A DNA stretch of 64,000 nt, taken from positions 1,304,501-1,368,500 of the forward strand of contig NZ_AP022847.1 in NCBI RefSeq assembly GCF_015100395.1. The letters run 5' to 3'. Source of the stretch: Nitrosophilus alvini (GTDB lineage: Bacteria; Campylobacterota; Campylobacteria; Campylobacterales; Nitratiruptoraceae). The notes under the pieces are model-generated. The model saw only the letters and a list, made by a program, of their open reading frames with translations. It was not told where the DNA came from and ran no database searches. Positions within the stretch are counted from its first letter, which is position 1, and every line of letters begins with the position of its first letter. The position numbers and the translations under genes are program-made. This document shows, piece after piece, positions 16,835-32,845 of this stretch.

Positions 16835-17071
16835 ATGACAGCAACAGCAAAACTTTTTAAAAACGGACAAAGCCAAGCGGTCAGACTTCCAAAAGAGTTC
16901 AGGTTTGAAAATCAAAATGAAGTGTTTGTAAAAAAATATAAAAAAGGCATATTGCTCATTCCAAAAACAAAAGATATTTGGGATGTTATGATTAGAAGCC
17001 TTGATGAATTTAGCGAGGATTTTCTAAAAGAAAGAACACAACCTGAGCAAAAAAGAGAGGAACTATTTTGA
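16835..17071 (+). CDS. vapB: VapB-type antitoxin (SpoVT/AbrB-like)
   Basis: 78 residues. The N-terminal TATAKLFKNGQSQAVRLPKE is the swapped-hairpin AbrB DNA-binding fold typical of VapB/MvpA antitoxins; the acidic and basic C-terminal tail would neutralise the toxin. The ribosome site AAGGAG lies 6 nt before the ATG. It overlaps vapC by 4 nt (17068-17071), ensuring coupled translation, and is probably autoregulated through the palindrome just upstream. Confidence 0.93.
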   Translation: MTATAKLFKNGQSQAVRLPKEFRFENQNEVFVKKYKKGILLIPKTKDIWDVMIRSLDEFSEDFLKERTQPEQKREELF

Positions 17072-17469
17072 AAAAGAGAATGTTAGATACCAATATCTGT
17101 ATCTATATTATAAAAAACAGACCGACAACTGTTTTGAAAAAATTCAAAGATTTTAATATAGGAGATTTGGCAATTTCATGTATAACTGTGTCTGAACTCT
17201 ATTATGGAGCTTATAAAAGTAAATATACGGAAAAAAATCTAAAAGCTCTTGAGGATTTCCTTTATCCTTTTGATATTATCGAATTTGACGAAAACGCCGC
17301 CGTTGAATATGGGAAAATAAGAGCCTCATTAGAAAAAAAAGGACTAATCATAGGTGGGCTTGATATGTTGATTGCAGCAAGTGCAAAATCCCAAGGAATG
17401 GTGCTTGTGACAAACAACACTAAAGAGTTTAGCAGGATTGACAATCTAAAAATTGAAAACTGGGTATAA
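17068..17469 (+). CDS. vapC: VapC-type PIN-domain toxin ribonuclease
   Basis: 133 residues, full-length PIN domain. Acidic metal ligands are Asp7 (MLDTN), Glu43 (SELYYG) and Asp99 (GGLDMLIAA), with the usual VTNNTKEFSRI near the end. Members cleave initiator tRNA or rRNA and are held inactive by VapB. The start is taken as TTG at 17068, because AGAGAGG lies 7 nt upstream of it, whereas the ATG at 17080 would be 19 nt away. Co-transcribed with vapB in the accessory island. Confidence 0.93.
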   Translation: MKKRMLDTNICIYIIKNRPTTVLKKFKDFNIGDLAISCITVSELYYGAYKSKYTEKNLKALEDFLYPFDIIEFDENAAVEYGKIRASLEKKGLIIGGLDMLIAASAKSQGMVLVTNNTKEFSRIDNLKIENWV

Positions 17470-19984: not shown

Positions 19985-20908
19985 ATGAAAAGATCGTCAA
20001 AAGCCAAAGATTACAATACCACTTTGACAAGATTGATAAAAATTTTAAAAAAGTTGCAAGACGGCGAAACTCTACAAACGAAAAATATCGCTGAAGAGTT
20101 CCAGATAGACAATAGAACGGCACAAAGATACATAAACGACTATTTATCAAATTTGGTTGAATTGGAACGTATTGGCAGAGGAGTTAGACTAAAAAGAGAT
20201 ATAACTTTGGATGACAAAGAGCAGTTTGTTATAGATACACTTGAGAAAATGGCAGAAGATATGGGGAGTGAGTTTTACTCAAAAGCTCATTATTTGCTAA
20301 AAAAGCTCAAAAACTTTAATGAAAATCCGGTATTTACCAAAATTTTAATGGAAGATATTTCGGATAAGATGGATTATGTTTTAAAATTAGAAAAAGCAAT
20401 AAAAAATAAAAACAAAATTGGATGCAGATACAGCGATACCAAAAAAACGGAGTATATATTGCATCCGTTAAAAATAGCTAATTTCGAGGGATATTGGTAC
20501 CTAATAGCAGTAGATAACGAAAATGGATTGTTGAAAAAGTTCCATTTAAAATCTATAAAAAATATAGAGATAAAAGATGAAACTTTTGCTGCAGATAAAA
20601 ATGTAATCGATAAACTCGATAGTGCCATAAATGTCTGGTTTCAGATAGACAGAGAACCGTTTGAAATAAGATTGTTTTTAGATCCGATAGCTGCAAAATA
20701 CTTTCAGAGATTGCCGATAAGTAAAAATCAAAAAATTATCGGCAAAGACAACGAAGGAAGTATAGAAATCTCTTTTAAAATAACCCACGAAATGGAAATA
20801 ATCCCTCTCATAAAATCCTGGATTCCGCATATAATAGTTTTAGAACCGGACTCAATAGCAAAAAAAATAAAAGAAGATGTAGAAAACTACTTAAAACTGC
20901 TCCCTTAA
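19985..20908 (+). CDS. WYL-domain transcriptional regulator
   Basis: 307 residues. An N-terminal winged helix-turn-helix (about 10-65; KNIAEEFQIDNRTAQRYIND) is followed by a WYL domain (about 130-215) with HPLKIANFEGYWYLIAVD and a WCX-like C-terminal part. Regulators of this type (BrxR, CapW, PafBC) control phage-defence loci and respond to nucleic-acid ligands. The ribosome site AAGGA precedes the ATG. The first CAGACACAAT motif begins 12 nt after its stop codon, and related motifs occur before the following units, so it is the best candidate regulator of the island; that link is inference. Confidence 0.88.
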   Translation: MKRSSKAKDYNTTLTRLIKILKKLQDGETLQTKNIAEEFQIDNRTAQRYINDYLSNLVELERIGRGVRLKRDITLDDKEQFVIDTLEKMAEDMGSEFYSKAHYLLKKLKNFNENPVFTKILMEDISDKMDYVLKLEKAIKNKNKIGCRYSDTKKTEYILHPLKIANFEGYWYLIAVDNENGLLKKFHLKSIKNIEIKDETFAADKNVIDKLDSAINVWFQIDREPFEIRLFLDPIAAKYFQRLPISKNQKIIGKDNEGSIEISFKITHEMEIIPLIKSWIPHIIVLEPDSIAKKIKEDVENYLKLLP

Positions 20909-20920
20909 ATTTCTCCTTTA

Positions 20921-20955
20921 ACCAGACACAATATGTCCTTTTTGAACGATATATT
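20921..20955 (+). promoter_or_regulatory. Island motif site 1 with promoter
   Basis: ACCAGACACAATATGTCC at 20921-20938 is followed after exactly 11 nt by the -10-like TATATT (20950-20955), 28 nt before the gene at 20983. The same 18 bases recur at 21998 with identical spacing to a -10. The motif covers the -35 region. Confidence 0.7.
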
Positions 20956-20982
20956 TTTATATCTCTTCAAAAAGGCATATTT

Positions 20983-21993
20983 ATGGAAAATAGTTCAAGT
21001 TTACTGGATAGAAGAGATTTCATAAAAATAAAGTTTTTTGTTTTAATGTATGCATATTTTTCATCAGTTTTTGGTATCAAAATTTTTAACAATAACGACA
21101 AACAAAAAATTATCGACTATGAGATTTTGGACAAACTTTTAGATCTGCCTTTCAGTGAAAAAGTCAAAAAAGAGATTGAACTTAGAGTCAGACTTCAAAA
21201 AAAATATTCAACAGACGCCAAGGGGGATTTGATACCCTTAAACAGGTTTTTTAAAGAGATCGGGACATATATCATATCAAATAAAAATATAAATGATTTT
21301 CACCTTATCCATAACTTTAAAGATCCTCATATAGATAGGATATATTATCTTGACAAAGCCGCGCAATATAACAATACGGAAGTATTGAGATACATAACAA
21401 GAAACATTTTATCGTTGGACAATAAAACTTTGGATAATGCTTTGCAACTTGCGCTAAAATCAAGGTCCTTTGATACAACTATTGAACTTTTAAAACACAA
21501 CGTCAAAATATCAAAACAGACAAAAAAAGTTCTGTTTGCTCTTTATAAAGAAGAGAGAAAAAGCCCTTATTTTAAACGAATATCGCAAAAAACGAATATC
21601 CCTCTTTTATCTAACGAAAAACCTTGCAAACAATCTGTTAAACCAAAAAGTAGATTTGCTAAAAAAGCTATCGATTACAGTATGCAGTTTTTTGACATTG
21701 AAGACTCATTTTACGAATATGTACTGATAGTTGTAAATAACAGTTTGATAGATCTTTGCAATAAGTCATATATCGATGATTTTTCTTATTACAAATCACA
21801 AAACAAAATACATATTACGCTATGGAGTTATAAAAGGTATTATCCTATAGATTTTTTATCCATTATTGAATCAACATTCCAAGCTAATGGATTTGGACCG
21901 ATAGAGGAGTATTTAGGAAAATATTTTAGACTCAAAAATTTACAATTCAAAGATATAGACTATTTTGATCTATTGAAAATAGAAATTTTTTGA
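20983..21993 (+). CDS. Unknown protein with ankyrin-like helices, island regulon
   Basis: 336 residues, not recognised as a named family. Residues ~115-175 (LDKAAQYNNTEVLRYI, then LDNALQLALKSRSFDTTIEL) read as two to three ankyrin-like helix pairs. The N-terminus LLDRRDFIKIKFFVLMYAYF has a twin-arginine-like RRDFIK before a hydrophobic stretch, so export or membrane attachment is possible, though lysines interrupt the segment. The C-terminal ~120 residues are aromatic-rich and of unknown fold. It sits alone between two copies of the island motif, each with its own -10 box. Conflict-related role inferred only from context. Confidence 0.7.
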   Translation: MENSSSLLDRRDFIKIKFFVLMYAYFSSVFGIKIFNNNDKQKIIDYEILDKLLDLPFSEKVKKEIELRVRLQKKYSTDAKGDLIPLNRFFKEIGTYIISNKNINDFHLIHNFKDPHIDRIYYLDKAAQYNNTEVLRYITRNILSLDNKTLDNALQLALKSRSFDTTIELLKHNVKISKQTKKVLFALYKEERKSPYFKRISQKTNIPLLSNEKPCKQSVKPKSRFAKKAIDYSMQFFDIEDSFYEYVLIVVNNSLIDLCNKSYIDDFSYYKSQNKIHITLWSYKRYYPIDFLSIIESTFQANGFGPIEEYLGKYFRLKNLQFKDIDYFDLLKIEIF

Positions 21994-21997
21994 CAAA

Positions 21998-22032
21998 ACC
22001 AGACACAATATGTCCAACCAAGTTGTTATCAT
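21998..22032 (+). promoter_or_regulatory. Island motif site 2 with promoter
   Basis: The identical ACCAGACACAATATGTCC lies at 21998-22015, starting 4 nt after the preceding stop codon. After exactly 11 nt comes TATCAT (22027-22032), 24 nt before the gene at 22056. It drives the three-gene unit 22056-23986. Confidence 0.72.
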
Positions 22033-22055
22033 TTTAGAAAAAGAGAGGAGAGAGT

Positions 22056-22424
22056 ATGAAAAAATTTACTGAAAAAGAAAGAGAAGAGTTAAGAAAAAAG
22101 TATCGTAAACAGTTAGAACCGGTTATCAATGCAAGAAATTCTGACAAAATGACGATAGTTGAAAGATACTATATGCCTTATGGAAACGATGGCGAATTGT
22201 CAGTAGATGAGATAATCGACAAATTAATAGCTCTCGATGAAATCGATCCAAATGAAGGAACAGATGAAGAGTTTTTCAAAAAAGTTGATGAAATTGTCGG
22301 CGAGAGATTTGATATCCCGATGACGCCTGTAACAAATCCCAGATACAATGAATTATATTTAGACATTATGAAAGACAGATATTTAGACCCTACTCTTTTT
22401 AGAAAAGTCATGAGTTGGGATTGA
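22056..22424 (+). CDS. Small acidic protein of unknown function
   Basis: 122 residues, highly charged, helical in appearance, without cysteine, signal peptide or membrane segment. No family recognised. It has a strong ribosome site (AGAGGAGAG) and is first in the unit with the ADP-ribosylglycohydrolase 16 nt downstream and the PD-(D/E)xK protein, all behind island motif site 2. It could be a substrate, adaptor or immunity partner for the enzymes that follow; nothing in the sequence decides. Confidence 0.7.
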   Translation: MKKFTEKEREELRKKYRKQLEPVINARNSDKMTIVERYYMPYGNDGELSVDEIIDKLIALDEIDPNEGTDEEFFKKVDEIVGERFDIPMTPVTNPRYNELYLDIMKDRYLDPTLFRKVMSWD

Positions 22425-22440
22425 AAGTCAAAGGTATTTT

Positions 22441-23376
22441 ATGGATATTCAATCAAGAGCTCTGGGAATGATGTTGGGTATAGGTATCGGAGATGCTCTC
22501 GGCGCTCCGGTCGAGTTTTTGGAAAGTGGTGCGTTTTCGCCAGTAGATGATTATAGAGCAGGCGGAAAATTTAATCTACCTGCCGGATATTATACGGATG
22601 ATACTGCAATGACGCTCTGTCTGGCAGATAGTTTGATAAAAAAGAGGGGTTGTGACCTAAAACATCAATTGGAAAATTATATAAAATGGTTAAATGAAGG
22701 ATTTATGAGTAGCAGCGGTCAGGCTGTGGGCTGTGGGAAAAACACCTATTCTGCACTCTTAAAATATATGAAGACAAAACAGCCTGTATATCGTAATAAA
22801 AATAGAAAAAATGCAGGAAATGGCTCTTTGATGAGAATTGCGCCAGTGGCAATTTTTTATAGAGACAATTTAAAAAAAGCTATGCAAATAGCCGGTAAAA
22901 CTTCATACACAACTCATGCACTCAAAATATGCGCAGACGCCTGCATGGTTTATAGCGGAATCTTGGTGGGAATATTGAGTGGCATGAGCAAAAAAGATGT
23001 TTTGAGTGAAGAGTTTGGAGAATTTTTAGTAGAAAAAGTTTTAAACTCTTATAAATTCGATGAAAAAATAGTTGACGTAATAAAAGGAAGTTATAAATCC
23101 AAGGACCGAGAAGAGATTGAGTCTTCGGGTTATGTTGTTCACTCTCTGGAGGCTTCGCTATGGGCTTTTTATCATACTGAAAGTTTCAAAGAAGCGGTAT
23201 TGTGCGCAGTGAATTTGGGAAAAGACAGCGACACTATAGGAGCGATATGCGCAATGGCCGCCGGTGGATATTATGGTGTTGAGTCAATTGATGAGAAATA
23301 TAAAGAAAAATTAAAAAATTATGAGCTAATATGCAATATTACACAAAAATTATTGGAAAGGAGAGGAAATGAGTAG
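22441..23376 (+). CDS. ADP-ribosylglycohydrolase family protein (ARH/DraG-like)
   Basis: 311 residues, full length for the family. Metal and catalytic motifs are complete: GIGIGDALGAPVEF (Asp18), YYTDDTAMTL (Thr52-Asp53-Asp54), the central AGNGSLMRIAP, and GKDSDTIGAI (Asp262, Asp264, Thr265). Members remove ADP-ribose from proteins or nucleic acids using two Mg ions, or act on related nucleotides. It overlaps the downstream PD-(D/E)xK gene by 8 nt and follows the small acidic gene by 16 nt. In this setting it may reverse, or sense, ADP-ribosylation during phage infection; that is inference. Confidence 0.92.
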   Translation: MDIQSRALGMMLGIGIGDALGAPVEFLESGAFSPVDDYRAGGKFNLPAGYYTDDTAMTLCLADSLIKKRGCDLKHQLENYIKWLNEGFMSSSGQAVGCGKNTYSALLKYMKTKQPVYRNKNRKNAGNGSLMRIAPVAIFYRDNLKKAMQIAGKTSYTTHALKICADACMVYSGILVGILSGMSKKDVLSEEFGEFLVEKVLNSYKFDEKIVDVIKGSYKSKDREEIESSGYVVHSLEASLWAFYHTESFKEAVLCAVNLGKDSDTIGAICAMAAGGYYGVESIDEKYKEKLKNYELICNITQKLLERRGNE

Positions 23377-23986
23377 AATTGGCAAAGAGGAGATCTTAAA
23401 AGCATGTACGCAGGGTATTAAAAACTCGTATGAGGAATATCTGGAATGGAGCAGTGACGAATGGCTATGGAACGCACCCGAGTATCTTTTGACTGTCAAT
23501 ATAGCAAAAGAGTTGTGGAAAATTGAAAAAGATGCAAAATTCATAACACTTGAGGATAATGTAAGAGCCACACTTAAAAATGCAGATGCTACGATAAAAG
23601 GCGGAATATCAGACCAGGCGAGAGCAAACGGAAGAAGCGATATCGTTTTTTGGTGGGGCAAAGGAACGCCACGTGGAATTATTGAAGTCAAAAATGCGGT
23701 TTATTCCAAAAAACATATCGATGAAGACCTGAAAAGACTTTATACAGTCTTGGAAAATGAGTCGGATATTGAGTTTGGCTTGACTGCTTTTTATGTGGAC
23801 AGGCACCTTGAAAGCGGAGATGCAAAAAGTAGAGTCGAAGAACGCATAAATGAAAATCTCATAAATGCGATCAAAGAAGAAGCTGAGGAAAAAGGATTTA
23901 GGGTCAAGGAACATTATCAAGAAATCGCCACTACAAAGAATGACAAAGACGCCGCATTCGGTGTTGCGATCATGATTTACAAATAG
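23369..23986 (+). CDS. PD-(D/E)xK nuclease-like protein
   Basis: 205 residues. The segment GRSDIVFWWGKGTPRGIIEV, then KN, gives the core Asp91...Glu106-x-Lys108 (EVK) of the PD-(D/E)xK fold, preceded by NVRATLKNADATIKGG, a helix plus glycine turn often seen in restriction-type members. A nuclease or an inactivated homologue are both possible; the spacing fits an active site. No family name recognised. It overlaps the ADP-ribosylglycohydrolase gene by 8 nt, so the two are translationally coupled, and the transcript ends at the terminator at 24008. Confidence 0.72.
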   Translation: MSRIGKEEILKACTQGIKNSYEEYLEWSSDEWLWNAPEYLLTVNIAKELWKIEKDAKFITLEDNVRATLKNADATIKGGISDQARANGRSDIVFWWGKGTPRGIIEVKNAVYSKKHIDEDLKRLYTVLENESDIEFGLTAFYVDRHLESGDAKSRVEERINENLINAIKEEAEEKGFRVKEHYQEIATTKNDKDAAFGVAIMIYK

Positions 23987-24007
23987 TATATAACTTTTAC
24001 GAATATC

Positions 24008-24035
24008 AAAAAGCTTCAATTTTTTGAAGCTTTTT
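24008..24035 (+). terminator. Intrinsic terminator after the ADP-ribosylglycohydrolase unit
   Basis: AAAAAGCTTCAA (24008-24019) pairs with TTGAAGCTTTTT (24024-24035), giving a 12-bp stem with a 4-T loop and a U-rich 3' side. It separates the 22056-23986 unit from the PP2C gene. Confidence 0.85.
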
Positions 24036-24074
24036 GTAATCGATTTTCTATGACAAATATGATATGAAAAACAG

Positions 24075-24836
24075 ATGTATATTAACGCATACTATACAAC
24101 CAATATCGGTTCAAAAAAGTTTTCCAAAAACCAGGACGCTATACTGCTTCACGAAAAAATCATTTGCAATACTTCTTTACCAGGTGTGGCATTCAAAAGT
24201 TTTGACAAAAGCTCTTTACTGTTTGCTGTAGCCGACGGTGTCAGCGCACATCGATACTCTGAGTTTGCAAGTTGTAAAGTTTTAAATCTTTTGATGGAAA
24301 AGTTTTTCAAAAACTCTATAATCAAAGTTATCAGAGACATTCAGGAGGAACTGGAAACGCTAAGTATCCACTCAAGAAAGCTCAATGGAGCTTCTACTAC
24401 ACTTGCAGGTGTAAATGTAGAACATGACAAAGCCACTATTTTTCATACAGGTGATTCCAGAGTATATCTTATCAGAGATAAAAAACTGAAACTTTTGACG
24501 ACAGATCACACTCAGGCAAACGCAATGCTAAAAAAAGGAGAAATAACAGAAGAGGAATTTCGAAATCTTTCGAATATATATTCTATGCTTATTGGATATC
24601 TGGTCTATGGAGAAAATGATAATTTGCCGGTTGATGTAACAAAAATCCATTTTGGATATAAAGATATTCTGCTCATCTGTACCGACGGTGTAAACGATAG
24701 TCTAAATGACAATGAGATTGAAAGTATTTTTAAAAGTGACGACCTAAATACACAAGCACAAACTCTCTTTCAAAAGATTTCACAAAAAGAGATCGATAAT
24801 TTTTCATTTATAATAATCAGCAATGACCTCAAATAA
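24075..24836 (+). CDS. PP2C-family protein phosphatase
   Basis: 253 residues. Metal-binding motifs of PPM/PP2C phosphatases are present: FAVADGVSAH (Asp54-Gly55), the central IFHTGDSRVYLI, ICTDGVND and the terminal DNFSFIII. It should dephosphorylate serine or threonine residues using Mn or Mg, but no protein kinase gene is seen in the island, so it may act on a partner phosphorylated elsewhere or on another substrate. The upstream terminator at 24008 leaves 39 nt for its promoter; TATGAT at 24058-24063 is a possible -10, which would give an almost leaderless mRNA, consistent with the lack of a ribosome site. Confidence 0.88.
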   Translation: MYINAYYTTNIGSKKFSKNQDAILLHEKIICNTSLPGVAFKSFDKSSLLFAVADGVSAHRYSEFASCKVLNLLMEKFFKNSIIKVIRDIQEELETLSIHSRKLNGASTTLAGVNVEHDKATIFHTGDSRVYLIRDKKLKLLTTDHTQANAMLKKGEITEEEFRNLSNIYSMLIGYLVYGENDNLPVDVTKIHFGYKDILLICTDGVNDSLNDNEIESIFKSDDLNTQAQTLFQKISQKEIDNFSFIIISNDLK

Positions 24837-24885
24837 TATTCCTGATTTTATATTATTCCGTTTTAAATAAAAAGAGAGGAGTCAA

Positions 24886-25404
24886 ATGAATAAGCTTAAA
24901 GACGCCCTGAAAAAATACGATAAAAACGAGCTCTGCAAAAAATTGAATTATCAAAATCTTAAAAAATGCAATAAAAGGATCAGTATACTCTTCGAAAGTT
25001 CGATCCAAGAATTTTTAAATGGTTCCTCTTACGATTTTTTATATTCAAATGAAGAGTTTTTAAATAAAATCTGTGAAATTTTAGAGATAGATCTGAGTGA
25101 TGAGATCAAAATAGCCAAAGATAGAATAAATAGATTAAAAACAGTATTTCCTGCGTATATCAAAGTAAAACACCATTACAAACCATCAAGTTGGTCCGGG
25201 GCCATGGTGTTGGGGAAATTTACAATAAAAGTGGATAAAGAGAGGATAGTCGATAAAGAACTCCACGAACAAACCGAATATGTTCAAAAGATTATTAAAA
25301 AGTGGATAAAAAATTATGAATTAGAAATCCCTTATTTTGGATTCATATATCGGTACGATAAAGAGAAATATATCGAATTTGATAAAAACGGGAACCCTTT
25401 ATAA
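24886..25404 (+). CDS. Unknown island protein
   Basis: 172 residues, not recognised. Lysine-rich; the N-terminal ~85 residues look helical and may form a helix-turn-helix-like bundle, the rest is mixed with the stretch KHHYKPSSWSGAMVLGKFTI. Strong ribosome site AGAGAGGAG; 49 nt after the PP2C gene with no terminator between, so the two are probably co-transcribed. Its 3' end overlaps the convergent AAA+ gene by 6 nt. Confidence 0.68.
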   Translation: MNKLKDALKKYDKNELCKKLNYQNLKKCNKRISILFESSIQEFLNGSSYDFLYSNEEFLNKICEILEIDLSDEIKIAKDRINRLKTVFPAYIKVKHHYKPSSWSGAMVLGKFTIKVDKERIVDKELHEQTEYVQKIIKKWIKNYELEIPYFGFIYRYDKEKYIEFDKNGNPL

Positions 25405-27015
25405 AATCCCGATTTTTCTGATTTTATCATTTTTAAAACCAATTTCATCTTTTATAAGGGATTCCAAAATGTTTAAAGTAATCTCTTTTTGATTCAATAT
25501 AGAATCCAAAAGCACTTTTTTAGCGATATTTTCTATCTGTCCTCCTGTTAGCTCAAAATCAGCTATTTCATCAATAAATACTTTTATTTGAGGAGCTCTT
25601 TTTAACCAAATCATTTTCCTGACCTGTTTGCTTGGCTTTTTATACTCTATTTTATAAAGAAATCTTCTGTTAAAAGCCTCATCCATATTTTCAATCAGGT
25701 TTGTTGTAGCTATAAAAATGCCGTCAAACTTTTCAAGCTCTTCAAGCAGAATATTTTGCATAGCGTTATTCATAACATCTACACTGTCTCTTGTATTTAA
25801 CCTTTGTCCTATCAAAGCATCTGCTTCGTTAAATAGCAAAATAGGCGTAGTTTTTAACTCTTCTTTTGCTCTTTCATACTCTTTAAATATCGCTTTTAGT
25901 CTCTTTTCACTCTCGCCTACATATTTGTCTCGAATATTTGATATATCTACTTGCAAAATGTCTCTTTGTGATTTTTTAGCCAGATAGTAAGCTGTCGCAG
26001 TTTTTCCTGTCCCTGGAAATCCGTAAAAAAGCGCTACAATGCCGCTTGATAGTTTTGCGTTTCTGAGTTTTTTTGTAATAGAGTCAAAATTTTTCTTATC
26101 TATAGTTTTTGCTATTAAATCTATTTGGGTTTTAATCTCCTTATCTAAATAGATATCCTGATCTATTTTTTTGTAAGACAAATATTTGACAACATTTGAA
26201 GCAAACTCTCTTTTTACTCTTTTTTTCACTTTAAAAAGCCGATAAAAAACTTTCTCTTCAATTTCCAATCGAGGATCGTTTCTAAACTTTCCCTCCTCTT
26301 CAACTCTCACTATCTTGTTTTCTATAATCTTCAAATCTTCTGCGTAGATTTTTTCCATAAAACCTGCTATTTCTGAAAGGTTGTCAAATATTTCTTCAGC
26401 AAGATCCGTAGCATATCCCCCATTATCGCCCAAAACTTTTTCAATGATGGTTTTAAATACCACTACCTTTTCAATTGTAGAATAAGGACACAAAATAGAT
26501 CTAAAATAATCATCTTTTATTTTTTTACTTATCTCTTCAACTCTTCTAAAAAACTTTTTTTGAGATATATTTTCTTCATGTCTTTTATTATAAAGAGAGT
26601 GTACATAATCTATAATTTTATAGTTATCACTAAAATCAACTTCTGAAAAATCATTATCCTTCAAAACCAGTTCATTAAATACATCTTCATCTATTTTTAT
26701 TTCCGGATTTGAAATATTCCTTCTTCCGCTTTTCTCGAGAATTATCAAATCCTTTTTTTCAAGACTTCTTAAAACTTTTAGTACCTCCAAATGTTCTTTG
26801 GTCCCATAATCAACCTTTTTACTTTCAAGCAAATTTTCCAAACATGTATATCTACTATTTCCCAATAAATGTTTTAATACGACTAAAAATATTGCTGTCT
26901 CTTTTAAATTTAGATTGTATAGACTCATCAGCTTTTTTGTTTCATCTGTCTGTTTTATATGAAAAAAGTTCTTTGTTTTATTATCAATAGCAGAAAGTAG
27001 TCTATTTATATTCAT
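25399..27015 (-). CDS. AAA+ ATPase (CDC48/FtsH-like single module)
   Basis: 538 residues. The C-terminal half is a AAA+ module: Walker A YGFPGTGKTATA (about 331-342), Walker B-like ILLFNEADALIGQR (about 390-403, with Asn in place of the first Asp as in related proteins), sensor ATTNLIENMDEAF and arginine fingers in NRRFLYKI. The N-terminal ~290 residues are helical and likely a substrate-binding or wHTH region. Such proteins remodel or disassemble protein complexes. The start ATG has AAAGGAG upstream, and island motif site 3 with a perfect TATAAT lies just ahead, so it belongs to the same regulon although it runs in the opposite direction. Confidence 0.85.
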   Translation of the reverse strand: MNINRLLSAIDNKTKNFFHIKQTDETKKLMSLYNLNLKETAIFLVVLKHLLGNSRYTCLENLLESKKVDYGTKEHLEVLKVLRSLEKKDLIILEKSGRRNISNPEIKIDEDVFNELVLKDNDFSEVDFSDNYKIIDYVHSLYNKRHEENISQKKFFRRVEEISKKIKDDYFRSILCPYSTIEKVVVFKTIIEKVLGDNGGYATDLAEEIFDNLSEIAGFMEKIYAEDLKIIENKIVRVEEEGKFRNDPRLEIEEKVFYRLFKVKKRVKREFASNVVKYLSYKKIDQDIYLDKEIKTQIDLIAKTIDKKNFDSITKKLRNAKLSSGIVALFYGFPGTGKTATAYYLAKKSQRDILQVDISNIRDKYVGESEKRLKAIFKEYERAKEELKTTPILLFNEADALIGQRLNTRDSVDVMNNAMQNILLEELEKFDGIFIATTNLIENMDEAFNRRFLYKIEYKKPSKQVRKMIWLKRAPQIKVFIDEIADFELTGGQIENIAKKVLLDSILNQKEITLNILESLIKDEIGFKNDKIRKIGIL

Positions 27016-27037
27016 ACAATCTCCTTTGATTTGTATG

Positions 27038-27072
27038 ATTATAAAATATAGAAAGTTCAGATTGTGTCTGGT
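27038..27072 (-). promoter_or_regulatory. Island motif site 3 with promoter for the AAA+ gene
   Basis: On the minus strand ACCAGACACAATCTGAAC (27072-27055) is followed after exactly 11 nt by a perfect TATAAT (27043-27038), 22 nt before the ATG at 27015. The first 12 bases match sites 1 and 2 exactly; the right part differs. Confidence 0.7.
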
Positions 27073-27089
27073 TTTGTCTTGAATTATAT

Positions 27090-27266
27090 TTATTGTTGAT
27101 GCAAGTAATTGTCGATATCCTCTATTGACAATATTTCATATCGGGCTTCATAATAACAATCTATGTTGCGATAACCTGTATGATTATAATTTGCTTGAAA
27201 GTTCAATTTAAAGAAGCTTACGCGGAAAGTGGATATTATGTGTGGCTTGACTTTATCACCTCTCTT
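27090..27266 (-). pseudogene. Possible gene remnant between McrC and the AAA+ gene
   Basis: A 58-codon frame without ATG or GTG start runs from after a TAA (27267-27269) to the TAA at 27090-27092. It reads as protein-like sequence, including NHTGYRNIDCYYEARYEI and ending SIEDIDNYLHQQ, with balanced composition rather than AT noise. There is no ribosome site. It is most simply the 3' end of a lost gene; family unknown. It could also be chance. Confidence 0.3.
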
Positions 27267-27289
27267 TTAAACATTTCATGCTTTTTTGC

Positions 27290-28480
27290 TTAATAAACCT
27301 TCAATTCATCTTCAACCAGATCAAAAAATATCGGTCTGACGGTAACCGCTCTTTTTTTATTATCTTCACGACTGTGGAATTCTGTTATATATCTGTTTGT
27401 ATCTACTTTTTCGATAAACGGATAAACCAGATAGACTTTTTTACAATTTTCATATTTACTTGCATAGGCAAACATCTGATATAGATCGTTTTGGGAAATA
27501 TCTTTTTCATCATTGATTATTTTCCATTTTGTATCTAACACTATTTTGCCATCATTTACAACTATATCTGGCTTTAACAAAAACTTTTCCGGCTTCTCGA
27601 AAAGATGATGTTTTTTATCTTGTAATTTTATGTTTTTACATCTTCTTTTTAAAAAATTTCCTACATAGCTTTCAAAAAGCAGATTCATATCGAACAGAAG
27701 TGCAAATGCCGACGAACCGCCCTTGAAAGGCGTAAAAGACTTGTTCAACAAAAACAGCTTTGACCAAAGAAGTGAATTTTGATAATAACTCATGCTTCTA
27801 TCATATTTTATTTTGGAAAATGCCGCTTTTATATTTTTTATCTCATTTATCCCATCGAAAACAAATAAAAACTCTCTGATTCTTTGTTGATTTTTTGAAC
27901 TTTTAGATAAAGAATAAAGTTTTTTAAGTGTGGTTTTGATGATTTTATTTTCGATTCTGTCCGGAAGATATTCATCATACTCAACAAAAAAGCGCTCTTT
28001 GTGTATAAAGTTTTTGGATATCTGCTCTTTTATTTTCAATTTTCCTTTTAAAAAGTTTTGATTTTCAACCCTGGTTATATAGTCGCTCTTTATTCCCTTT
28101 TTAACCAATATATCAAGTTCGTTTAGAAACATCTCTATAAAAATCTCAAGCAAAGGTAAGTTTTTTGTTTTTAGATTTGCTTTTTGGGAGTATTTGAATG
28201 GAGAGTTTTTTAACGTTTTTAACATTTTCAACAAAATCTTTTTTGATTTTTCAAAATCATCTTTATTTGAGATTTTTGGCAATATTTCCAAAACAAAACC
28301 ACTTTTTGTCTGGATAACACCTACAAAGTTTTGACTTTTTAAAACTCCTTTTCTTGAATAGCCTAAAAACAGATTTTCATTTTCTTGGGCAAATGCTTCA
28401 AGCTCTTTAAAAAACTTTTCACCCACTTTTTCTTTATCAATAGTCTCATACTCTATAACTTGATAAAATTTATTCTTCAT
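27290..28480 (-). CDS. mcrC: McrC-family subunit of an McrBC-type restriction system
   Basis: 396 residues. Typical McrC architecture: an N-terminal beta-rich region with LGYSRKGVL and GFVLEILPKI that contacts the McrB ring, a middle helical part, and a C-terminal PD-(D/E)xK nuclease with KPDIVVNDGKIVLDTKWKI and a downstream Gln (NDLYQMFAYA). It cuts DNA when driven by its AAA+ partner, classically at modified cytosines. It starts 8 nt after the stop of the McrB-like gene and lacks a good ribosome site of its own, so translation is coupled. Confidence 0.92.
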   Translation of the reverse strand: MKNKFYQVIEYETIDKEKVGEKFFKELEAFAQENENLFLGYSRKGVLKSQNFVGVIQTKSGFVLEILPKISNKDDFEKSKKILLKMLKTLKNSPFKYSQKANLKTKNLPLLEIFIEMFLNELDILVKKGIKSDYITRVENQNFLKGKLKIKEQISKNFIHKERFFVEYDEYLPDRIENKIIKTTLKKLYSLSKSSKNQQRIREFLFVFDGINEIKNIKAAFSKIKYDRSMSYYQNSLLWSKLFLLNKSFTPFKGGSSAFALLFDMNLLFESYVGNFLKRRCKNIKLQDKKHHLFEKPEKFLLKPDIVVNDGKIVLDTKWKIINDEKDISQNDLYQMFAYASKYENCKKVYLVYPFIEKVDTNRYITEFHSREDNKKRAVTVRPIFFDLVEDELKVY

Positions 28481-28488
28481 TCTTTTTC

Positions 28489-30393
28489 TTAATCGTAAAT
28501 TTTTATATAACTTTCCGGATTCTCAAAAGCATCATAATTTATCTCGTAAACTGTTTTTTCATCATTCAAATCATCGATATCTTCTGTCCCAAATAACTCT
28601 TTTACTCTATTATCTTTTTTCTTTATAAATTGATACTTCTCATTATCTGTTTGACTATCTGCCAAAACAATTCTTATCTTTGCCCAGTCATCATAAAAAT
28701 ACTCTGCAAGAAGCGGGATGATTTTGTTTTTAAATATATTTTTGAGATCGTCAAAATCTTTGACATTCATAAAATATGCGTGACCGATTGTGTGATCTCT
28801 ATCGTAAAGATATTCTATTCTTTGATTAATGCTTTCAAGCATAGATTTTATATTTATCCCATCTACTTCAAAATCCAATTTATTCGGATCCGGCATCATC
28901 TCTACAAACTCAAATCTTCTTCTAAGTGCAGTATCTAAAAGGGCAATGCTTCTATCCGCTGTATTCATTGTACCGATAATATACAGATTTTTGGGAACTC
29001 TGAAAGACTCTTTTGAATAAGGAAGAGTAACCGTCATTTCCTCTTCGGCTCCAAGTCTCTTATCCGGTTCGATAAGCGTTATAAGCTCCCCAAAGATTTT
29101 AGAGATATTCCCACGATTTATTTCGTCGATAATTAGTACATAATTTTTTAAATTTTCGTTATTTTCTACTTTAGCATCTCTTAATAGATACTCTAATAAC
29201 CCTTCATAATATGGCTGTAAACCTCCACTAATAATTTTTTCAGCACTTTCAATATCGTATATTTTTTTTAATGTATTTATTGATAGAGTATGCTGTTTGC
29301 TACCATTTTCTTTTTCAAATTTTATACTTTTATCGGTAATTTCGAAAATATAAAACTTTTTTCTTTTCATTTGAATCTCAATTTTTTCTTCATCCATTAA
29401 TTTATCAATAACTTTTTCTCTGAAAACATTTTCAAAATCTTTTTTTGTCCATTTATTTTCCGCATCTTCAAAATTCTTTTTTGCTTTATCACTTATTTTT
29501 TTGAAAATACCATCTTTTATTTCGTAACTAATATTTCCTTCACTATCAGTTTCGGCTTTTAACCCTTCAATAAACTCTTCATAACTATAACTTTGATGAA
29601 ATGTTACAAATTCTATTTGCCCACTGTCTTTATATTTTTGAAAATTCTCTTTTGCTTTTTCTCTCGAATCCGGCTTTTTGCCTTCGATAATCTCCACAGC
29701 TTTTTCAATAACGCTATAAGTTTTACCTGTTCCCGGAGGTCCATAAAGGATTTGGTTGAGAGGAACAAAGCGATTAACTATTTTTTTGTTCAAATTTTCT
29801 TTCTCTTTAATTGGATTATTATTTTCTTTTAGTGCTTCTAAATAAGCTTTTGCTTTTGTTTTTAAAGTTTTAAATAGATTTTTATCATTAGTATCATTAG
29901 AATCCAATTTTTTTTGAGCTTCTTCAAATTTTTTAAATTCTATTTTTTTATCTATTATTGCTTTTAAAATTTCATTAATTTTTTTATCTTTAAATTCAGG
30001 GATTTTTTGAATAATTTTGATACCTTTTTTTAAACCATTAAAGTATGTATCTCTTTTTTGTTTATTATTATAATTTTTCTCTAAAAAATCTTTAAATTTT
30101 TTATCTTCAAATAGATCAAAACCATTTTTTTCAATACACCATTGAGCACTCTTTTTGTGATCTCCGGTAGAGTTATATAAATTTGACTCTAAAATTTTGG
30201 GTAACTTATATTTAAGTGAATAAGCTATTCCTACTAAATATTTATGAGGAAATTCCTCTCCATTATAAATTAAAGAATAAGAAACACTTTCTCTATGCCA
30301 ATTATAATGTGGGGTATTTTTAATCTTTTTATATTCATTCATTGCTTTTATAATATCTTCTCTTGTAATATCTGAAAAATCTATATTTGGCAT
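28489..30393 (-). CDS. mcrB: McrB-family AAA+ motor of an McrBC-type restriction system
   Basis: 634 residues. The AAA+ domain has Walker A LYGPPGTGKTYSV (about 216-228), Walker B YVLIIDEINRGNISKIFGE, the McrB signature MNTADRSIALLDTALRRRF, and arginine fingers within it. The N-terminal ~100 residues (HYNWHRESVSYSLI, EFPHKYLVGIAYSL, KNGFDLF) resemble the ScoMcrA-type N-terminal DNA-recognition head rather than the E. coli McrB DUF3578 domain, so the recognised modification may differ from 5-methylcytosine. McrC follows 8 nt downstream. The upstream region holds duplicated -10 boxes (30453-30477) and a weak island motif (30517). Confidence 0.92.
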   Translation of the reverse strand: MPNIDFSDITREDIIKAMNEYKKIKNTPHYNWHRESVSYSLIYNGEEFPHKYLVGIAYSLKYKLPKILESNLYNSTGDHKKSAQWCIEKNGFDLFEDKKFKDFLEKNYNNKQKRDTYFNGLKKGIKIIQKIPEFKDKKINEILKAIIDKKIEFKKFEEAQKKLDSNDTNDKNLFKTLKTKAKAYLEALKENNNPIKEKENLNKKIVNRFVPLNQILYGPPGTGKTYSVIEKAVEIIEGKKPDSREKAKENFQKYKDSGQIEFVTFHQSYSYEEFIEGLKAETDSEGNISYEIKDGIFKKISDKAKKNFEDAENKWTKKDFENVFREKVIDKLMDEEKIEIQMKRKKFYIFEITDKSIKFEKENGSKQHTLSINTLKKIYDIESAEKIISGGLQPYYEGLLEYLLRDAKVENNENLKNYVLIIDEINRGNISKIFGELITLIEPDKRLGAEEEMTVTLPYSKESFRVPKNLYIIGTMNTADRSIALLDTALRRRFEFVEMMPDPNKLDFEVDGINIKSMLESINQRIEYLYDRDHTIGHAYFMNVKDFDDLKNIFKNKIIPLLAEYFYDDWAKIRIVLADSQTDNEKYQFIKKKDNRVKELFGTEDIDDLNDEKTVYEINYDAFENPESYIKIYD

Positions 30394-30438
30394 TTTTAAC
30401 CTTTTTAAAAAATTTTATAACGGCAACACCGCTCGCAA

Positions 30439-30477
30439 ACTTATTCATAACTATTATACTTATTCATAACTATTATA
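30439..30477 (-). repeat. Tandem duplication of a 19-bp promoter unit upstream of mcrB
   Basis: Two directly adjacent copies of a 19-bp unit (plus-strand ACTTATTCATAACTATTAT) at 30439-30457 and 30458-30476. Read on the minus strand each copy starts with TATAAT (30472-30477 and 30453-30458), so the -10 box of the mcrB promoter is duplicated. Confidence 0.75.
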
Positions 30478-30499
30478 ATAAATAGATTTTTTTTTCTAT

Positions 30500-30534
30500 A
30501 TTTTACATTTTTATTTAACAAAATCATGTCCGGT
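30500..30534 (-). promoter_or_regulatory. Weak island motif site near mcrB
   Basis: Minus-strand ACCGGACATGATTTTGTT (30534-30517) shares only 10 of 18 bases with site 1, but again a -10-like TAAAAT (30505-30500) follows after exactly 11 nt. The duplicated TATAAT boxes closer to mcrB are competing promoters, so this site is tentative. Confidence 0.35.
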
Positions 30535-30542
30535 TTCACTTA

Positions 30543-31009
30543 TCAATACAAAAACCCAAACAACCATAGGGGAATCTCATTTTTATAACCTATCTCTATA
30601 TCGTCTTTGACAACGAATGCGTTTTTTACATCTTTTATCTGTTTTAGAGTTTTGTTTTTTCCTCCTATTTCAAACGTAAAATCACCCACCAAAAAGTCTC
30701 CCTCTTTTGATAAGAAGATATTTTCATTCAAAAATGAGGGTCTATTTGAAAAAAAATTTATTATCCGATTGACAAAAAAGGTCTCTCTTTCATTCCCTTT
30801 TTTGATATATCCGGTTATCGCTCTCATCAGATTTGTATTGTTCAGATACATTTTATCCTACTTTTGAAGTTTCGAATATCCTCTTCCTTTATAATGCAGA
30901 TTTATTAGAATCTGTGCTTTTTCCAATAGATACAGATACTTCTTTTAAAATTTAAAGACACTCTTTCTATCAGTCTATGTTGTTCTTCAAAAAATTTTGC
31001 AAAGTCCAT
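30543..31009 (-). pseudogene. Decayed DUF4143-type AAA ATPase
   Basis: The frame ending at 30543 encodes the unmistakable C-terminus of DUF4143 ATPases (YLNNTNLM, RETFF, GDFLVGDFTFEIGGKNKT, final IPLWLFGFLY). Upstream in the same frame the homologous sequence continues (LYLLEKAQILINLHYKGRGY then SKLQK) but is broken by a TAG (30858-30860) two codons before the ATG at 30851. About 25 nt farther the frame shifts, and the start region ATG 31009 (MDFAKFFEEQHRLIERVSLN) matches a plausible N-terminus. The whole Walker A/B portion is missing, so the gene suffered a large internal deletion, a frameshift and a nonsense mutation. The 102-residue frame from 30851 is therefore not a real gene. Confidence 0.85.
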
Positions 31010-31132
31010 ATAACATACAATTAGATATTTTGTTAAATCTATATTACACTTTACATCATTGGTTATTAAATTAAAATTTTCGCTGCGCTAAGAATAACAA
31101 ACTCATAACTCTGATGGTATAAACCAGATGGT

Positions 31133-32455
31133 TTATTTCAAAATAAGCTTTTTCAACTCCTCTTTTGTAACTACCAAAAAATGCTCTTTTTTATTATGTT
31201 TTATGTAGCTTGTTTTTTTGATAAGTTCATTTAAAACCTTTTTCTTATCCACTTTTTCTTGATATTTACACTCAATAAAAGCGATATTTTTATCATCAAA
31301 TGCAACGATATCGATCTCTTCTTTATTATTCCACCATCTGCCAACTTTCATTGGTTTGAAATCCAGAAATTTTTCTGGATCGTCGATTATCTGCTCTTTT
31401 ATCACTTCCTCAAAAGCGAAAGAGACAAATCTATCGATAAAATTCAGCTCGATCTCTTGCATAACAGCTTCTATTTCGCCTATTTCAAGATAGCTATAAT
31501 TTTTATATACATAATAAAACCAAAAGTTCAGAAATTTATCTTTTATTCTATACCTTCCAAATTTGCTTTTTAAAGGATTTTTTTCGGTAACCGGCACCTC
31601 CTTTTCCAAAATATCAAGCTCAATAAGTTTATTTAGATATCTTGTCAAAAAAGAGGCGTTAACTCCAAGAGAAGAGGCGATATTTCCTATTTTCGTATCT
31701 CCTTTTGAGATGACCTCAAGTATGGAAAAATAGGTGGGTGTTTCGCTGATCTCTTGTTTTAGTAAAAAATAGCCTTCGCTATAGAGATAACTGTTTTTAT
31801 CCAAAATATTTTCTTTTAGGTTCTCTTCAAAGGATAGCTTCGGATCATATAAAAGCAGATATTTTGGAGTAGATCCAAAAGATGAGTAGGTTTTTAAAAG
31901 CGTATGGATATCTAAATTTGGTAAAAACTCATTGAGATATCTAAATTTAATCGGCTTGAGATGAATACTGTTTGTCCTTCTGCCATATAAAGGAGCATTA
32001 TAGTTTAAAACTTCACTGTGCATCATGGATATAACACTGCCGCAAAGAATGAGATGGATATTTGACTTTGAAAGAAACATATCCCACGCTTTTTGCAATG
32101 TAGAAGAGAATGTTTTATCGACTTTTGTTAGATTTTGAAACTCATCGATCGCTATTATCAGCTTTTCTTCTATTTTTGCTTTTGCAAGATACTCAAATGC
32201 ATTTTCAAAACTTTCAAATTTAAACTCTTTAGGAAGAGCAAAAAACCTTGTAATCTCTTTTGAGAAGAGTTCCAACTGAAGATTGAGATTTACTTCGGTC
32301 GCATAAAAATAGATATGAGGCTTATCTTTGATAAATTCTTCAATCAAAGCAGTTTTTCCAACTCTTCTTTTACTATAAATGACGCTAAAAGATGATCCTT
32401 TTTTTCGATATTCGCTATTGAGAGAGTTTAATTCATTCGTTCTGTTTATAAACAT
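31133..32455 (-). CDS. Archaeal-type AAA ATPase with C-terminal DUF234 nuclease-like domain
   Basis: 440 residues. It begins MFINRTNELNSLNSEY, with Walker A YSKRRVGKTALI (29-40), Walker B LIIAIDEFQNL, a winged-helix region around KIGNIASSLGVNASFLTRYL, and a DUF234 C-terminal part with EEIDIVAFDDKNIAFIECKY, an IDxxA...ECK arrangement of the PD-(D/E)xK fold. Family members are common in archaea and in bacterial islands; a nuclease-linked conflict role is suspected. Single gene; an inverted repeat (32470-32489) overlaps its probable leader and island motif site 4 lies ~180 nt upstream. Confidence 0.85.
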   Translation of the reverse strand: MFINRTNELNSLNSEYRKKGSSFSVIYSKRRVGKTALIEEFIKDKPHIYFYATEVNLNLQLELFSKEITRFFALPKEFKFESFENAFEYLAKAKIEEKLIIAIDEFQNLTKVDKTFSSTLQKAWDMFLSKSNIHLILCGSVISMMHSEVLNYNAPLYGRRTNSIHLKPIKFRYLNEFLPNLDIHTLLKTYSSFGSTPKYLLLYDPKLSFEENLKENILDKNSYLYSEGYFLLKQEISETPTYFSILEVISKGDTKIGNIASSLGVNASFLTRYLNKLIELDILEKEVPVTEKNPLKSKFGRYRIKDKFLNFWFYYVYKNYSYLEIGEIEAVMQEIELNFIDRFVSFAFEEVIKEQIIDDPEKFLDFKPMKVGRWWNNKEEIDIVAFDDKNIAFIECKYQEKVDKKKVLNELIKKTSYIKHNKKEHFLVVTKEELKKLILK

Positions 32456-32469
32456 TTATGAACCTTGTC

Positions 32470-32489
32470 ATTATGAATGATTTCATAAT
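32470..32489. promoter_or_regulatory. Inverted repeat in the leader of the DUF234 ATPase gene
   Basis: ATTATGAA-TGAT-TTCATAAT, a perfect 8-bp inverted repeat with a 4-nt spacer, 15 nt upstream of the ATG at 32455. It could be an operator or a weak mRNA hairpin; AT-rich chance is possible. Confidence 0.4.
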
Positions 32490-32617
32490 TATATAATACA
32501 TATTTTTTAAAATCAAATCAACTTTGTATCTTTTAAATAAACTTGCAAAAGTAAACATAAAGCCTTTGTAAAAGTGATAAATGGCTTTAGTTACCGTTTT
32601 TTTCAAAAATATAATTT

Positions 32618-32652
32618 ATTACAAAAAAGTGATGATACAAATTGTGTCTGCT
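32618..32652 (-). promoter_or_regulatory. Island motif site 4
   Basis: Minus-strand AGCAGACACAATTTGTAT (32652-32635) keeps the 10-base core CAGACACAAT and shares 14 of 18 bases with site 1. A -10-like TGTAAT (32623-32618) follows after exactly 11 nt. The next gene on this strand starts ~160 nt downstream (32455), giving a longer leader than at sites 1-3. Confidence 0.55.
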
Positions 32653-32768: not shown

Positions 32769-32845
32769 TGGTAGCTGGGGACGGACTTGAACCGTCGACC
32801 TCCGGCTTATGAGACCAGCGCTCTCACCAGCTGAGCTACCCAGCC
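32769..32845 (-). tRNA. tRNA-Met (anticodon CAT)
   Basis: A 77-nt cloverleaf on the minus strand: acceptor GGCTGGG (from 32845) pairs with CCCAGCT (a G-U at the first pair), T arm ACGGTTCAAGTCCGT, loop CTCATAA with anticodon CAT at 32811-32809, CCA encoded at 32771-32769. The anticodon stem lacks the three G-C pairs of initiator tRNA, so it is elongator Met, or an Ile tRNA with modified CAT. Its 3' end faces the accessory island. Confidence 0.92.

Follow-up and report, generated by a model that had tools for sequence, protein, structure and literature searches.

A palindromic element at fixed distance from the −10 box beside a WYL regulator gene of Nitrosophilus alvini: a candidate operator for several defence promoters

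Transcription factors with a winged helix-turn-helix (wHTH), a WYL and a WCX domain are known both from the response to DNA damage and from phage defence, and they provide the closest described counterparts to the element reported here, which recurs at several promoters next to a WYL regulator gene of Nitrosophilus alvini. The stretch analysed, hereafter the window, comprises 64,000 nucleotides (nt) of contig NZ_AP022847.1 (positions 1,304,501 to 1,368,500); positions are counted from its first letter, and the element lies in an 11.7-kb island at 20,921–32,652. DriD, the WYL activator of an SOS-independent DNA damage response in Caulobacter crescentus, has the consensus ATACGAC-N7-GTCGTAT, and its sites lie at one distance from the −10 box, overlapping the −35 element (PMC12340889). 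The promoter of the mycobacterial activator PafBC, termed RecA-NDp, reads tTGTCRgtg-8nt-TannnT, that is TGTC-N12-TannnT (PMC5656591). BrxR, associated with bacteriophage exclusion (BREX), uses an inverted repeat with a 5-bp spacer, and two such boxes occur in one island (PMC9122601), while CapW, associated with cyclic oligonucleotide-based antiphage signalling systems (CBASS), shares the wHTH-WYL-WCX architecture and binds as a homodimer to a palindrome within a defence promoter (PMC9122588). Those WYL factors of defence systems that have been studied well repress a single neighbouring operon, and the joint switching-on of whole defence islands is little known. A published account of a WYL regulon in Campylobacterota was not found in a search of the literature that was conducted mostly without subscription journals.

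The element in N. alvini is palindromic, occupies a fixed place in the promoter, is concentrated in the island and recurs, identically arranged, next to related WYL genes across the phylum. On the basis of this comparison we infer that it very probably serves as operator for the WYL transcription factor whose gene lies at 19985–20908. This protein probably acts as an activator that occupies the −35 region at several defence promoters; a single protein of the WYL family may turn on several defence genes jointly.

Sites and promoter arrangement in the island

The 10-mer CAGACACAAT occurs four times in the island, always outside called genes (20923–20932 and 22000–22009 on the plus strand, 27061–27070 and 32641–32650 on the minus strand), just as had been described in the initial annotation, which also held that an 18-mer around it ends 11 nt before a −10-like hexamer. 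This gap is indeed present at all four sites (TATATT, TATCAT, TATAAT and TGTAAT), sites 1 and 2 share one 18-mer letter for letter, and the 18-mer of site 1 begins 12 nt behind the end of the WYL gene. The description as a shared operator-like motif with fixed spacing thus stands, but its palindromic nature had been missed: the 18-mer is an imperfect palindrome, AGACA-N5-TGTCC, whose half-sites GACA and TGTC are perfect in sites 1 and 2, while sites 3 (TGAA) and 4 (TGTA) are degenerate in the second half. From the second half-site to the hexamer the distance is 12 nt.

Regulator gene, sites and boxes (strand; bit scores and ranks within the window):
19985–20908, plus: WYL regulator gene (Pfam WYL 1.2e-10, WCX 4.5e-9, HTH_11 6.4e-4)
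20925–20937, plus: site 1, GACA-CAATA-TGTC, perfect half-sites; 30.0 bits, rank 2
20950–20955, plus: −10-like box TATATT of site 1, 12 nt after TGTC
22002–22014, plus: site 2, GACA-CAATA-TGTC, perfect half-sites; 31.5 bits, rank 1
22027–22032, plus: −10-like box TATCAT of site 2, 12 nt after TGTC
27056–27068, minus: site 3, variant GACA-CAATC-TGAA; 20.3 bits, rank 3
27038–27043, minus: −10 box TATAAT of site 3
32636–32648, minus: site 4, GACA-CAATT-TGTA, weaker; 11.4 bits, rank 4, inside the range of shuffled windows
32618–32623, minus: −10-like box TGTAAT of site 4, which does not fit TAnnnT
30518–30530, minus: site 5, GACATGATTTTGT, ahead of mcrB; 7.4 bits, rank 7, not above chance

The scores stem from a profile trained on other genomes, with the best match in shuffled windows (9–15 bits) as control. 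Sites 1–4 are the four best-scoring places in the window, and of the five sites only 1–3 are lifted above noise. At the level of sequence, sites 1–3 can be regarded as solid; their TGTC-position half-sites lie 45, 41 and 40 nt from the respective start codons. Site 4, for which the exact 10-mer and its position speak, has a weak second half and a weak box, its start codon is not close, and it is a weak candidate. The fifth site, previously proposed as a weaker copy before mcrB, falls to the noise level. The regulon postulated for the island is strongly supported by the recurrence of palindrome and spacing beside related WYL genes in Campylobacterota, with the reservation that site 4 is weak and that mcrB as a member is not supported above chance.

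Many copies in the genome without a link to islands were named in the initial annotation as an outcome that would overturn its proposal, and this outcome did not occur. Pattern searches of the 1.81-Mb genome yielded seven copies of CAGACACAAT, four of them in this island and three in open frames of 209–433 codons elsewhere. That a given 11.7-kb stretch holds at least four of seven copies by chance has a probability of about 6e-8, which rises to about 1e-5 when all such stretches are considered. The full pattern GACA-N5/6-TGTC-N12-TAnnnT has three occurrences, namely sites 1 and 2 and one within open frames, and is not enriched genome-wide here (three versus five for a reversed-pattern control); it is the location of the full-pattern copies and not their number that is distinctive in this genome. 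With up to two or three mismatches the count in this genome is at the level of the reversed control and is not used as evidence.

Recurrence of the arrangement in Campylobacterota

For comparison, 83 loci from Campylobacterota that contain a related WYL gene were used, in which genes and their orientation were assigned by simple scripted calling of the longest frames. Within 250 nt of the WYL gene ends, GACA-N5-TGTC was present 10 times versus 1.5 expected and GACA-N6-TGTC 24 times versus 3.2 (seven-fold), while other spacings of GACA and TGTC occurred there zero times or once and seven other palindromic tetramers were not comparably enriched. In these loci and the window region together, 123 of 135 copies of GACA-N5/6-TGTC are intergenic, with intergenic DNA making up 17%. 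Many loci carry multiple copies, with up to seven full promoter patterns per approximately 15-kb locus, and the typical distance from TGTC to the start codon is about 46 nt.

For the analysis of promoter geometry, orientation was fixed by the downstream gene alone and near-identical contexts were removed, with residual kinship among the genomes remaining. Of 55 non-redundant target promoters, 45 have a TAnnnT box separated from TGTC by exactly 12 nt, versus a background of 3.2%; the corresponding binomial value of 1e-57 is overstated because the genomes are related. Palindromes with N5 and N6 both keep the 12 nt, the extra base being taken up on the distal side, and the −10-proximal half-site is therefore the fixed one. 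When spacer and gap were varied in a grid, the only peaks appeared at spacers 5 and 6 with gap 12 (28 and 72 places), and spacers of 3, 4, 7, 8 and 9 gave at most one place per cell. The core is strict, since relaxed half-sites add little: perfect cores were found 65 times versus 2.9 per control offset, cores with one mismatch 12 times versus 1.9 and cores with two mismatches 13 times versus 6.3. A further −10 peak, upstream at offset −16, was set aside as a probable mirror image of the AT-rich −10 boxes that belong to the other strand. With transcription assumed to begin 7 nt downstream of the −10 box, the centre of the palindrome comes to lie near −31, over the −35 region.

A fixed distance to the −10 box would also result if the element were the −35 box of an alternative sigma factor instead of a WYL binding site. 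Such a box would have to be palindromic, allow two spacers and prefer the neighbourhood of WYL genes; the −10 boxes resemble the ordinary TATAAT type, and elsewhere the recognition helix is again accompanied by the matching operator variant (see below), so that this explanation is very improbable. We consider it just as remote that the arrangement arose by chance or through promoter copies spread by duplication, with the spacing kept by descent. Sites 2 and 3 do have further bases in common upstream of the core (GACAAAACCAGACACAAT), which speaks for it, but in 68 non-redundant promoters the 12-nt gap and the surroundings of the −10 box share little sequence and nevertheless keep a constant length, the target genes belong to different families, and the enrichment is genome-wide and phylum-wide.

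A comparison at the level of whole genomes served as control for loci without WYL genes. Genomes with a WYL gene contain 335 full promoter patterns versus 72 in the reversed control, and genomes without a WYL match at the cut-off contain 418 versus 231, the two groups differing with a Mann-Whitney p of about 1e-14. The excess in the latter group is at least partly due to weaker WYL homologues that were missed, since six of eight high-count genomes lacking a match at the cut-off do have a WYL domain. A second palindrome class, GACACAACCTGTC, with a −10-like box about 12 nt behind it, is present repeatedly in genomes that fall short of the WYL cut-off (G392, G233, G106:C21, G128 and G069:C11).

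Among the genes that immediately follow a consensus promoter in other genomes are those for IetA/TRIP13-like AAA ATPases, Cas12a, an RT-RmuC protein, a Mad8-like protein and AAA/McrB-type proteins; for the majority, no match is informative. Homologues of the AAA protein encoded at 25399–27015 in the window carry a consensus promoter at the 5' end in 10 of 19 frames in other WYL loci, and these include the two closest to the window protein (loci L078 and L083). GACA-N5/6-TGTC-N12-TAnnnT thus constitutes a simple rule that applies beside WYL genes in many genera and can be searched for in any genome of the phylum.

The WYL protein and its mode of action

The protein encoded at 19985–20908 matches WYL (41.6 bits, cut-off 21.8) and WCX (37 bits, cut-off 23.9) above the curated cut-offs. 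HTH_11 stays below its own cut-off (20 bits versus 25), and the predicted model, which is of moderate quality (predicted local distance difference test, pLDDT, 82; predicted template modelling score, pTM, 0.54), contains helices at residues 32–38 and 43–57 and a wing at 60–69. With this N-terminal helix-turn-helix the protein fits the wHTH-WYL-WCX class, to which DriD also belongs. As a single query in phmmer it found no match among the sequences of the protein data bank (PDB). A profile, which was required here, retrieved PafBC (2.4e-12), DriD (5.8e-9), BrxR (1.5e-4) and CapW (0.0077), and a fold search with the predicted model returned DriD (1.7e-14), PafBC (2.5e-12), BrxR (2.3e-8) and CapW (6.5e-8). 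The WYL groove contains basic residues, KKFHLKSIK where PafBC has arginines. By analogy with DriD and PafBC, whose signal is single-stranded DNA, the signal would be single-stranded nucleic acid arising from DNA damage or phage.

That the adjacent WYL protein is the likely regulator had been proposed from its position in the initial annotation and now appears strongly supported by the comparison across genomes. A further, suggestive link is provided by the recognition helix, NRTAQRYIN, although this pairing of helix and operator was noticed post hoc and involves few loci. Counterparts exist in two genomes of another family, KRTAQRYIN in locus L092 and KRSAQRYIN in locus L082, and the respective WYL genes are adjoined by the operator forms GACACAATCTGAA and GACACAATATGAA, each separated by N12 from TATAAT. 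The odd second half of site 3 finds an explanation in the variant GACACAATCTGAAC beside the WYL gene of L092, which is identical to site 3 over 14 bases and likewise stands N12 from TATAAT; only three copies of GACACAATNTG are present in 1.07 Mb of the other loci. Two further WYL genes are encoded in the genome of N. alvini and may be regulators of the sites; the loci around them hold no exact copy of the palindrome.

In the model we propose, GACA-N5-TGTC would be occupied by a WYL dimer that covers the −35 region in no fewer than three promoters, those of the gene starting at 20983, of the probable operon at 22056–25404 and of the AAA gene at 25399–27015, and possibly in a fourth promoter at 32.6 kb. 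RNA polymerase would then contact the WYL factor in place of a −35 element, as it does with DriD and PafBC. Similarity to DriD, the best fold match, extends to the site, in that GAC-N7-GTC is present in sites 1 and 2 as GACA-N5-TGTC and in part only in sites 3 and 4, and to the presence of several promoters with a site over the −35 region at constant distance from the −10 box, where it is the constancy that is compared and not the length of the gap. The flanks ATAC and GTAT of the DriD sites are, however, not kept, the N6 form (GAC-N8-GTC) dominates in Campylobacterota, and the targets of DriD are dispersed repair genes, whereas here defence genes are clustered beside the regulator. With PafBC, the top profile match in the PDB and likewise a WYL-domain activator, the promoters at sites 1 and 2 and those of the 45 targets in the phylum have the TGTC-N12-TannnT geometry in common. 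PafBC is a heterodimer encoded by two tandem genes; its site is not a palindrome, and it binds DNA only in the presence of polymerase. Here, a single WYL gene is present at the locus, and the palindromic nature of the site speaks for a homodimer.

BrxR and CapW resemble the system in being wHTH-WYL-WCX proteins of defence loci with a palindromic operator, in a defence island and in a defence promoter, respectively, and as repressors of defence operons that bind palindromes at promoters they offer the model for a different role of the same operator: a repressor placed over the −35 region whose release on phage infection derepresses the island. A repressor could tolerate many positions, the present one included, and placement is indeed freer at the regulator's own gene, where TAnnnT follows at N12 in 2 of 13 assigned sites and a fit in the opposite direction exists in 5 of 13. 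A constant gap of 12 nt is, on the other hand, needless for steric repression and is nonetheless kept in 45 of the 55 target promoters, with the extra base on the distal side. In addition, CapW sites overlap the −10 box of one adjacent operon and the BrxR site of E. fergusonii lies downstream of the promoter, BrxR having arms of 10–11 bp placed differently relative to the −10 box, while sites 1–4 end 12 nt upstream of it. Both repressors are also more distant than DriD and PafBC by profile and fold; this closeness is weak evidence on the mode of action and does not decide it. Taken together, repression appears rather unlikely, though far from negligible.

Activation is the role we favour with reasonable, not high, confidence, because a constant distance to the −10 box is needed by an activator that contacts polymerase and not by a steric repressor. 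Several points weigh against it or against the wider proposal. The defence-associated WYL factors described in the literature consulted, BrxR and CapW, are repressors (PMC9122601, PMC9122588); the promoters may need no such factor for their activity, and a fixed −10 box alone is no proof that an activator is needed. Sites 3 and 4 are degenerate in the −10-proximal half, opposite to what a PafBC-like contact would lead one to expect. The palindrome was not found upstream of the WYL gene at 19985–20908, so that autoregulation through it is not evident. No full consensus promoter is present in 42 of 81 WYL loci, and the promoter rule is common in such loci and not universal. Finally, the predicted model has a pTM of only 0.54, and its full-length TM-scores to DriD are only 0.45. 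A still broader picture must be considered tentative and may well not hold: a homodimeric WYL activator of the DriD/PafBC type could serve throughout the phylum as an island-wide switch that senses single-stranded nucleic acid, whose operator replaces the −35 box in the TGTC-N12-TAnnnT geometry common with mycobacterial PafBC, and which brings several unrelated anti-phage systems into action together. In any case, the promoter rule singles out genes of unknown function as candidates for a role in defence, and it renders the question of activator or repressor directly testable.

Genes of the island and its surroundings

20983–21993, plus: 336-aa protein, first gene behind site 1; weak ankyrin-like match (Pfam Ank_2 0.0068, below cut-off)
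22056–25404, plus: probable operon behind site 2, a single operon as judged from gene order and strand only; its first gene (plus) encodes a 122-aa protein
22441–23376, plus: ADP-ribosylglycohydrolase in this operon, nearest model Tri1 (below cut-off)
23369–23986, plus: Tin-like protein in this operon
24075–24836, plus: PP2C phosphatase in this operon
24886–25404, plus: uncharacterised 172-aa protein, last gene of this operon
25399–27015, minus: 538-aa AAA ATPase, IetA/TRIP13-like, behind site 3 (Pfam AAA 1.3e-25, PADLOC IetA 7.6e-25)
27290–30393, minus: mcrB and mcrC (McrC Pfam 1e-94; McrB NCBIfam 1.2e-39, below cut-off)
31133–32455, minus: DUF234-type ATPase, next annotated frame behind site 4, separated from its −10-like box by 162 nt; uncertain as a target

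A possible frame of 41 codons (32433–32558, minus strand), preceded by AAAGG, lies between site 4 and the DUF234 gene and could be the true first target of site 4. Homologues of the Tin-like protein are encoded near WYL genes in loci L045, L046 and L074, and the 172-aa protein has seven homologous frames in WYL loci, of which three immediately follow a consensus promoter.

At the edge of the island, a tRNA-Met gene (32769–32845, minus strand) adjoins groES/groEL and is the only match of an Rfam scan; a second copy of its 3' end, as expected for an integrated element, was not found within the window. At about 16836–17469 in the window, a PIN-domain protein is encoded after a short AbrB/VapB-like frame, and the two are likely to form a toxin-antitoxin pair.

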